From Natrialba swarupiae (GTDB taxonomy: Archaea; Halobacteriota; Halobacteria; Halobacteriales; Natrialbaceae): 64,000 nucleotides of DNA. The translations under genes and the position numbers were made by a program. The notes under the pieces are model-generated. The model was not told the DNA's origin. It saw nothing but the letters and a program-made list of their open reading frames with translations, and searched no databases. The stretch covers positions 1 to 64,000 of the forward strand of contig NZ_VTAW01000015.1 of the NCBI RefSeq assembly GCF_008245225.1. Direction: 5' to 3'. This document shows, one piece after another, positions 7,463-9,315 of the stretch (position 1 is the stretch's first letter; every line of letters begins with the position of its first letter).

Positions 7463-7508
7463 ACGGAGGCGTCTCGAGAGGATTGCTCAGTACTCCGCCA
7501 CGCGTCGA

Positions 7509-7552
7509 CTGCAGGGTCGACTCGGACCACACCACCGCATTCGACCCTGCAG
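7509..7552. repeat. Perfect 12-bp inverted repeat upstream of the IS element
   Basis: CTGCAGGGTCGA (7509-7520) is repeated in reverse complement as TCGACCCTGCAG (7541-7552), with a 20-nt loop. It lies between copy 2 of the dispersed element and the IS left end and has no poly-T tail. It may be a terminator for the che operon or a scar of an earlier insertion. Confidence 0.6.
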
Positions 7553-7569
7553 TGCAGGCGTGTCAAGGC

Positions 7570-7602
7570 ACTCAGTGGACCATCCAGGAAGTTCGTACCC
7601 AG
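7570..7602 (+). repeat. Left terminal inverted repeat of the IS630 element
   Basis: About 29 of 33 bases match the reverse complement of 9192-9224; both share AGTGGACC and TTCGTACCCAG. Confidence 0.8.
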
Positions 7603-7669
7603 ATAGAACTGGAACTGTTATTCCTCTTCACCCCTTCTAAATGAGCATTCTCCGCCGAGAGTGCATCTC

Positions 7670-8791
7670 ATGTCGCCAGGACCTCAGCCAGTTACAGTTA
7701 CATTGACCGCTCAAGATCGAGCCGATCTTGAGGCGGTCACTCGCAAAGCAACCAGTTCACAACGGGATGGATTCCGCGCACGTATTATCCTCCTCGCCGC
7801 TAACGGATACAACAATACCGAAATCGCCGTAGAGCTCTCTTGTACACGTAAAACCGTCCGTAAATGGCGCGGTCGCTTTGCCGACGCTGGCCGGGCCGGG
7901 CTCGCGGATGCGTCCCGGCCCGGCCGACCACCGATCTACGATGATGCTGTTCGAGCCCATATCACTGCCCTCGCGTGTGAACTCCCCACTACACATGAGC
8001 TGCCACTGTCCCGGTTGAGCAGCACCGATATTCACATGATTGCTGTCTGTGAGCTTGATCCTTGTCCCTCGCCATCAACGATCGCCGCCTGGCTCAGGCA
8101 GGCGGCGATCAAACCCTGGACCACTACCTCCTGGAAGACACCACGTGATCCAGAATTCGCACAGAAGGCCGCACCAGTCCTTGACCTGTATAACGGTACG
8201 TGGAAGGATGAGCAACTCACGGATCGAGATGTGATCATCTGTGCTGACGAAAAGACGGCACTTACCGCCCGGTCCCGGCAGCGCCAGCCGCCGGGACCGG
8301 GACGGCCCGTCCGTGTTGAACACGAGTACGAACGCAATGGTGCCTGTACCTATCAGGCAGCACTCTTCGCCACAACGGGTGAAGTCCATGGTCACTGTGT
8401 CACTCGGAACACCCGTGCGAACTTTGAGCGGCTTGTTGAGGAGGTCATGGATCACCCGATCTGCACATCGGCAGATCGGGTGTTTTGGGTACTCGACAAC
8501 GGTAGTGCTCACCATCCAAACACGTTCACGTGGTGGCTGAAGAAACACTACGACAACGTGGAGGTACTGCATCTGCCTACGGGCGCGTCGTGGTTGAATC
8601 AGATCGAGCTGTACTTTTCGATAGTGACGCGCAAAGCGTTGACCGGGAGCAGCTTCGAGTCGATTGCTGATCTGATGCGCCAGATGTCTGGGTTTGAAGT
8701 GCTCTGGAACGCGGTTCCAGAGCCCTTCGAGTGGACATACACAACAGAGCAGCTGAACAGACGGCTTGAGAACCTCCCTGCGGTAGGGTAA
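7670..8791 (+). CDS. IS630 family transposase
   Basis: 373 residues from ATG 7670; GTG 7661 is an alternative. A helix-turn-helix of the winged type occupies about residues 15-90 (NNTEIAVELSCTRKTVRKW, then GLADASRPGRPP). The DDE domain follows with D in CADEKT (about 193), D in VLDNGSAHH (about 275) and E in LNQIELYFS (about 312). The full length and intact catalytic residues suggest it may still be active. Several perfect hairpins are built into the codons, including one over the conserved GLADASRPGRP motif, so they come from codon choice rather than inserted DNA. Confidence 0.93.
   Translation: MSPGPQPVTVTLTAQDRADLEAVTRKATSSQRDGFRARIILLAANGYNNTEIAVELSCTRKTVRKWRGRFADAGRAGLADASRPGRPPIYDDAVRAHITALACELPTTHELPLSRLSSTDIHMIAVCELDPCPSPSTIAAWLRQAAIKPWTTTSWKTPRDPEFAQKAAPVLDLYNGTWKDEQLTDRDVIICADEKTALTARSRQRQPPGPGRPVRVEHEYERNGACTYQAALFATTGEVHGHCVTRNTRANFERLVEEVMDHPICTSADRVFWVLDNGSAHHPNTFTWWLKKHYDNVEVLHLPTGASWLNQIELYFSIVTRKALTGSSFESIADLMRQMSGFEVLWNAVPEPFEWTYTTEQLNRRLENLPAVG
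7705..8723 (+). repeat. Six long hairpins within the transposase gene
   Basis: Inverted repeats: 7705-7738 (about 15 bp, one bulge), 7889-7900/7914-7925 (12 bp), 8080-8091/8099-8110 (12 bp), 8268-8279/8290-8301 (12 bp), 8453-8464/8471-8482 (12 bp) and 8701-8710/8714-8723 (10 bp, 3-nt loop). All arms except the first are perfect. Such a density is far above what chance gives in about 1 kb. Confidence 0.9.
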
Positions 8792-8816
8792 AGCTCGTTG
8801 GACGCCATTAGGTAGT

Positions 8817-9182
8817 ATGGCTTCAATTCCTACGATAGAACGTCAGAAACTTGGAGATCGGCTTGAGACCCACGCGCGCACCGCGTGGGACGAGCGGTGC
8901 GCGCGTGTAGATGTTCGCTTCCGTGGCGAATATGCATACATTGACGCGCTGGAGAGCGATCCATGGATTGCTCCCTCCGTACCTGAAGAAGAGAAAGAAC
9001 GGATTCGTCAGATGCCAACGAAACTGTGCCGACTGACGTGGACAGGTGATCCCGACTCGTGGGGCTTTGCCTTCTACAAGTACAGCGATGACCGGTACGA
9101 GCCGTCGATTTCTCTCGACGGCTCGTTCGCTGGCTCACCAGAATCGTGCTTTGACACCGCTGCGCAGCTCTACCTCCAATAG
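8817..9182 (+). CDS. Small IS630-associated protein of unknown function
   Basis: 121 residues, encoded inside the IS630 ends, 25 bp after the transposase. No catalytic motif is recognised. The N-terminal half (QKLGDRLETHARTAWDERC, then VDVRFRGEYAYIDAL) resembles small proteins found beside haloarchaeal insertion sequences, as far as recalled. A second half carries PTKLCRLTWTGDPDSWGFAFYK. Two perfect hairpins (8871-8907, 13-bp arms; 9097-9126, 12-bp arms) lie in the coding sequence. It is probably a passenger or accessory of the element, not a chemotaxis gene. Confidence 0.75.
   Translation: MASIPTIERQKLGDRLETHARTAWDERCARVDVRFRGEYAYIDALESDPWIAPSVPEEEKERIRQMPTKLCRLTWTGDPDSWGFAFYKYSDDRYEPSISLDGSFAGSPESCFDTAAQLYLQ
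8871..9126 (+). repeat. Two perfect hairpins within the IS passenger gene
   Basis: CACGCGCGCACCG (8871-8883) pairs with 8895-8907; ACGAGCCGTCGA (9097-9108) pairs with 9115-9126 over a 6-nt loop. Confidence 0.9.
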
Positions 9183-9191
9183 GGAGCGCTA

Positions 9192-9224
9192 CTGGGTACG
9201 AATTTACTGGACGGTCCACTCAGT
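9192..9224 (-). repeat. Right terminal inverted repeat of the IS630 element
   Basis: Reverse complement of the left terminal repeat at 7570-7602 with about four mismatches. Confidence 0.8.
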
Positions 9225-9226
9225 AC

Positions 9227-9300
9227 CGTCCCAAGCGTCGACTGATGAGTAAAATCAGTCACCCACACACGGTTTCACCCATCAGTGCAGGCTTGGGACG
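9227..9300. repeat. Inverted repeat just outside the IS right end
   Basis: Arms 9227-9247 (CGTCCCAAG-5 nt-ACTGATG) and 9280-9300 (CATCAGT-5 nt-CTTGGGACG) pair except for the internal 5 nt. ACTCAGT(A) flanks both sides (9219 and 9303), echoing the IS terminal repeat. This may be a miniature element or a scar of a related insertion. Confidence 0.65.
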
Positions 9301-9315
9301 CCACTCAGTATCGAG

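Follow-up and report, generated by a model that had tools for sequence, protein, structure and literature searches.

Perfect hairpins written into the codons of an IS630-family element are a maintained feature of most haloarchaeal insertion sequence families

An IS630-family insertion sequence of Natrialba swarupiae carries eight perfect hairpins inside its two genes, and such hairpins, brought about by codon choice, are maintained throughout this element and in most haloarchaeal insertion sequence (IS) families. We studied the element in a 64,000-nucleotide stretch of contig NZ_VTAW01000015.1 (positions 1 to 64,000; hereafter the window), which is part of a 4.2-Mb haloarchaeal assembly and contains one copy of the element. 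The best overall explanation, to which we would give an even chance, is that pairing within a DNA strand is selected and that the hairpins act in a single-stranded recombination state.

An initial annotation of the window had placed eight inverted repeats within the two genes of the element, and all of them are present at those positions (Table 1). It had described seven of the eight as having perfect arms; the hairpins are real, but all eight are perfect, with arms of 10–14 bp, and three of them extend to 15-bp arms if one mismatch is allowed. Hairpins with arms of at least 9 bp number 8 in the 1.645-kb element as compared to 15 in the window's other 62 kb, and those of at least 12 bp number 6 as compared to 0 (Poisson P ~1e-8). 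When the synonymous codons of both genes were shuffled 1000 times, a procedure that preserves protein and codon usage but lets dinucleotides that span codons change, hairpins of at least 10 bp had a mean of 0.10 and a maximum of 3, as compared to the 8 observed. Relative to synonymous shuffles, the energy of local folding in the transposase gene is lower by 4.7 standard deviations on the sense strand and by 7.5 on the antisense strand. One hairpin does cover the conserved protein motif GRAGLADASRPGR, and the view that the stems come from codon choice, not from inserted DNA, is supported both by the synonymous shuffles, which fail to produce the stems, and by relatives of the element, which keep them. 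Comparison of the eight hairpins revealed no sequence common to all.

Table 1. Coordinates of the IS630-family element and its hairpins in the window.
Feature	Position	Strand	Hairpin centre	Remarks
IS630-family insertion sequence, 1645 bp	7575..9219	+		ends defined by the inverted repeats at the termini and by comparing relatives
Target-site duplication TCA, left copy	7572..7574			
Target-site duplication TCA, right copy	9220..9222			
Left terminal inverted repeat	7575..7600	+		GTGGACCATCCAGGAAGTTCGTACCC
Right terminal inverted repeat	9194..9219	-		
IS630-family transposase, 376 aa	7661..8791	+		Pfam DDE_3 1.6e-18
121-aa accessory protein	8817..9182	+		same strand as transposase
Hairpin 1, arms 10 bp, loop 3	7710..7732		7721	
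Hairpin 2, arms 12 bp, loop 13	7889..7925		7907	covers GRAGLADASRPGR; 97.5% of alignment cells paired
Hairpin 3, arms 12 bp, loop 7	8080..8110		8095	
Hairpin 4, arms 12 bp, loop 10	8268..8301		8285	
Hairpin 5, arms 12 bp, loop 6	8453..8482		8468	
Hairpin 6, arms 10 bp, loop 3	8701..8723		8712	
Hairpin 7, arms 14 bp, loop 9	8871..8907		8889	in accessory gene
Hairpin 8, arms 12 bp, loop 6	9097..9126		9112	in accessory gene

Nine haloarchaeal IS630 relatives with 64–80% protein identity, including members from Halococcus, Salinibaculum, Saliphagus and Halobellus, keep most hairpins at the same places. In an alignment of ten sequences (alignment A1), whose members are not independent, 90.3% of stem cells are paired as compared to 31–40% with slid partners, and 12 cells have changed on both sides as compared to 4.9 in shuffles. 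The outer pair of hairpin 5 is C-G here and in some relatives and G-C in others, and third codon positions are identical at 88% in stems versus 67% elsewhere. Hairpin 6 is missing in the branch of Saliphagus, G105, G268, Hdom2 and Hbel, where a substitute hairpin lies ~35 nt upstream; in most members of this branch, which comprises the more distant relatives, hairpin 1 is replaced by a hairpin ~20–25 nt downstream. It is thus the local presence of a hairpin that is conserved, not its particular sequence. In pairwise comparisons, ISH8 and ISH8A (5.7% divergence) show no changes in 53 stem pairs, ISH11 and L061 (10.9% divergence) show none in 58, and ISH3B and ISH27-2 differ by 11 uncompensated stem changes.

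The trait is far more general than the initial annotation saw, being common to haloarchaeal insertion sequences. IS4/ISH8, ISH3, IS5/ISH11, ISH6, IS66, IS701, IS1634 and IS110 are also tiled, with 2.3–4.9 hairpins per kb, roughly 20–50 times the codon-shuffle expectation. In plasmids of Halococcus dombrowskii and Halobellus ramosii, sampled as three stretches of 50 kb, we counted 102 hairpins with arms of 9 bp or longer across 28 transposase or IS genes, where synonymous shuffles predict 3.5. The 63 other genes hold 5 (3.2 expected), i.e. chance level; at 11 bp or longer, the same stretches have 54 in transposase or IS genes and none in other genes. On H. salinarum pNRC100, ISH3B, ISH27-2, ISH8, ISH8A, ISH28 and ISH11 total 33 hairpins (1.7 expected), and three sets of elements drawn by Pfam family from haloarchaeal genomes gave 85, 11 and 87 hairpins where 3.3, 0.3 and 3.6 were expected, the last of these sets being chosen from the listed PF01609 and PF13358 places. 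Haloarchaeal IS110 elements, which are of the DEDD class, carry 23 hairpins (0.4 expected), and a restriction of the trait to DDE elements was therefore rejected. One hundred genes, a set that omits some genes known to be without hairpins, fell into 16 protein clusters, every one of which has 2.3–4.9 hairpins per kb. Elements with only 48–54% GC also carry hairpins. Some open reading frames in this survey were defined as the longest frame over a match, and the strand of an IS was taken from its profile match; PL47 and the pNG700 stretch are without an annotated transposase.

The hairpins are also placed at near-regular distances. They occur roughly every 185–190 bp in the IS630 element, more evenly than under random placement (p = 0.001–0.002), as they do in several unrelated families, and across families their spacing is centred on 130–250 bp. 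Taking one representative from each of 14 unrelated protein clusters, we obtained a combined evenness p of 5e-4, a signal carried mostly by about three to five of the 14.

Two roles had been offered for the stems in the initial annotation: folding of the mRNA, which would limit translation or hide the message from nucleases, or a need for stems in single-stranded DNA. Stems selected in mRNA would accept G-U at places that refuse A-C. Among 79 hairpins that have one mismatch and 11 or more Watson-Crick pairs, however, we counted 14 G-T and 15 A-C mismatches, G-U being tolerated no better than A-C or other mismatches, and the first pair outside 307 unique stems is G-T in 35 cases and A-C in 46; in haloarchaeal 23S rRNA stems, a small control, G-U accounts for 25 and A-C for 16 of 83. 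Folding of ten genes, computed with a base-pair span of 150, gave z-scores against shuffles of -7.1 for the sense and -6.7 for the antisense strand (paired p = 0.54), and 35 four-base loops showed no excess of RNA tetraloops (GNRA 1, UNCG 0). Sense-mRNA folding is thus unsupported by wobble counts, tetraloops and strand symmetry, all of which argue for Watson-Crick DNA pairing, and of the two roles the need for stems in single-stranded DNA fits best. Folding of both sense and antisense RNA was likewise disfavoured, because G-U and A-C are jointly no commoner than in shuffles (29 of 79 mismatches, or 37%, versus 34%). Loops of 3–7 nt make up 68% of real hairpins as compared to 47% of chance hairpins, and stem GC is 71.5% as compared to a gene GC of 56.4%, both as expected of a folding single strand. 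From these data we consider it likely that selection targets the pairing of a DNA strand rather than of mRNA.

Tiling has exceptions within haloarchaea and is sporadic outside them. Haloarchaeal TnpB genes hold 16 hairpins (1.7 expected), mostly a single 3'-terminal one at the place where omega-RNA would lie, with no tiling; one of them (L208, ORF positions 1126-1230) terminates in four tandem 9–10 bp hairpins ~29 nt apart. The large ISH7/IS1182-like transposase genes of haloarchaea, although of the DDE class, have 0–1 hairpins each (untiled examples are L049:43331-48204, L052:1905-3719, L133 and L149), and several haloarchaeal IS5-type genes of ~280 aa that we examined have none. In other classes of the same phylum, DDE_3 genes hold 0 hairpins in 15.4 kb (0.9 expected); DDE_Tnp_1 genes outside haloarchaea hold 6 in 20.5 kb (0.6 expected), four of which come from one gene, and bacterial transposases hold 8 in 20.7 kb (2.0 expected). 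The trait is thus strong in haloarchaea and sporadic elsewhere. The gene with four is the L188 DDE_Tnp_1 transposase from the same phylum, whose 9–10 bp hairpins (0.1 expected) set it apart from 20 others sampled. Four 9–10 bp hairpins (0.1 expected) also lie in istA/istB of IS1326, an IS21-family element on plasmid R100 (L161:9093-11388), and a weaker version of the trait may thus occur in bacteria.

The main rival to selected DNA pairing is that hairpins in transposase mRNA slow or stop ribosomes and so keep transposase scarce, with SmAP1 relieving the block. Mobilome mRNAs of H. salinarum exceed the average, yet just 4 of the 33 proteins were seen, of which three are TnpB, the product of untiled genes, and deletion of SmAP1, to which hairpin melting has been ascribed, lowers IS4 and ISH3 transposition (PMC10134880). 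A role in RNA also fits this combination of abundant transposase mRNA and missing protein, and the predicted mRNA is far stabler than synonymous shuffles. We nevertheless judge a brake on translation unlikely, given the lack of a G-U preference over A-C, the equal stability of the antisense strand, the lack of an RNA tetraloop excess, and the extension of hairpins over the whole gene and the accessory gene, where a single start-proximal one would be enough.

Hairpins could also be retained without use if template switching or intrastrand correction copied one arm onto the other, and perfect arms, abrupt ends and double changes are the traces to be expected of this. A purely mutational origin predicts neither the spacing, which in several families is too even, nor the chance level of hairpins in neighbouring non-transposase genes; stems moreover change more slowly than the remaining sequence, and uncompensated changes exist, as between ISH3B and ISH27-2, so that we find such an origin improbable. 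Inverted symmetry, strict Watson-Crick pairing and regular spacing would equally suit sites in double-stranded DNA that bind a dimeric protein or extrude cruciforms under supercoiling. A binding site common to the hairpins was rejected, since their sequences differ. GC-rich stems and loops of up to 13 nt, both found here, form cruciforms poorly, and the preference for 3–7 nt loops suggests folded single strands; double-stranded sites thus appear very improbable to us. Chance or the composition of GC-rich genes has practically no standing as an explanation, being refuted by synonymous shuffles, which at the same protein and codon usage yield 20–50 times fewer hairpins, and by the other haloarchaeal genes, neighbouring ones included, which stay at chance level; the tiling of elements of 48–54% GC speaks against it too.

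If the pairing of a DNA strand is what is selected, a recombination intermediate is the state in which we would prefer to see it act. Haloarchaea are polyploid and equalise their many chromosome copies via very efficient gene conversion, and a new insertion on one copy, opposite empty sites on the others, would then be exposed as a long unpaired single-stranded loop. Folding of this strand into a hairpin each 150–250 nt would let it evade loop removal and nucleases or, alternatively, hinder strand exchange between IS copies, and with either outcome the insertion would survive. In yeast, heteroduplex repair fails to remove hairpin-forming insertions. Gene conversion between the chromosome copies of polyploid Haloferax is extremely efficient (PMC8223754). 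It also takes place in polyploid methanogens (PMC8223754), yet methanogen transposases, like other archaeal ISs from outside the haloarchaea, have few hairpins, which argues against the recombination proposal. The untiled TnpB, ISH7/IS1182-like and some IS5-type genes argue against it as well, because protection would benefit all. That the hairpins act while the element is single-stranded during recombination is accordingly a suggestion we advance only tentatively, and we hold as similarly doubtful the wider proposal that codons in most haloarchaeal DDE/DEDD insertion sequences have convergently been rewritten to form Watson-Crick DNA hairpins at even intervals, by means of which the elements survive as single-stranded DNA when chromosome copies recombine.

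A search of the open-access literature found no earlier description of hairpin tiling, and it is on this search that we base novelty, which concerns the hairpin feature and not the IS630 element. The element resembles other IS630 members in its DDE transposase and terminal inverted repeats, and perhaps in a TA-type target (CTAG; here TCA is duplicated), but differs in having perfect hairpins tiled over its coding DNA and a co-directional 121-aa accessory gene; the bacterial IS630 relatives examined have few hairpins or none. The subterminal hairpins and omega-RNA of IS200/IS605 are also transposable-element hairpins working in single-stranded DNA or RNA, yet those are terminal and read by TnpA/TnpB, whereas haloarchaeal IS hairpins run through genes and differ in sequence. 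RNA viruses have genome-scale ordered RNA structure embedded in codons along whole genes; there, unlike in haloarchaeal IS stems, G-U pairs are used. REP/BIME palindromes are likewise short DNA hairpins kept in genomes, but REPs are intergenic with a common sequence, whereas the present hairpins are coding and have none.

Unrelated transposon families in one archaeal class therefore have a common hidden layer written in their codons. If the DNA strand must fold, the fate of haloarchaeal mobile DNA would be decided in a single-stranded state through which it passes, and hairpins would be a marker for active elements; transposon protection by DNA hairpins would, if true, be of a form previously undescribed. 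The hairpins would then also offer a handle on the low protein yield of H. salinarum transposase mRNAs. How polyploidy and gene conversion are linked to the persistence of transposons becomes testable in Haloferax and Halobacterium.

The terminal inverted repeats of the element are 26 bp long and imperfect, and its NCBIfam NF033545 match scores 178 bits against a cut-off of 100. Relatives lie in CTAG, which fits TA duplication; like the TCA of the present copy, TGA is found on both sides of a Hcc. dombrowskii copy (L035). The accessory gene, a partner of IS630 transposases, is covered by neither a Pfam nor an NCBIfam model, its 121-aa product having no match in either. Relatives of this protein (36–40% identity) adjoin IS630 transposases in Streptomyces, Rhodococcus and other Actinobacteria plasmids, where the gene is divergent from the transposase rather than co-directional as here. 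Viral contigs searched for transposase relatives yielded none. Two 82-bp miniature elements with internal hairpins (MITE1 at 7490-7571 and MITE2 at 9223-9304) flank the IS630 element and abut it directly, with only single TCA triplets between; their family has roughly 50 genome matches and occupies CTAG sites. On both Halococcus dombrowskii plasmids (L035, L036) an IS630 relative adjoins rdfA and an archaeal SMC-related gene, and in L036 an IS4 element sits inside the accessory gene of that relative.
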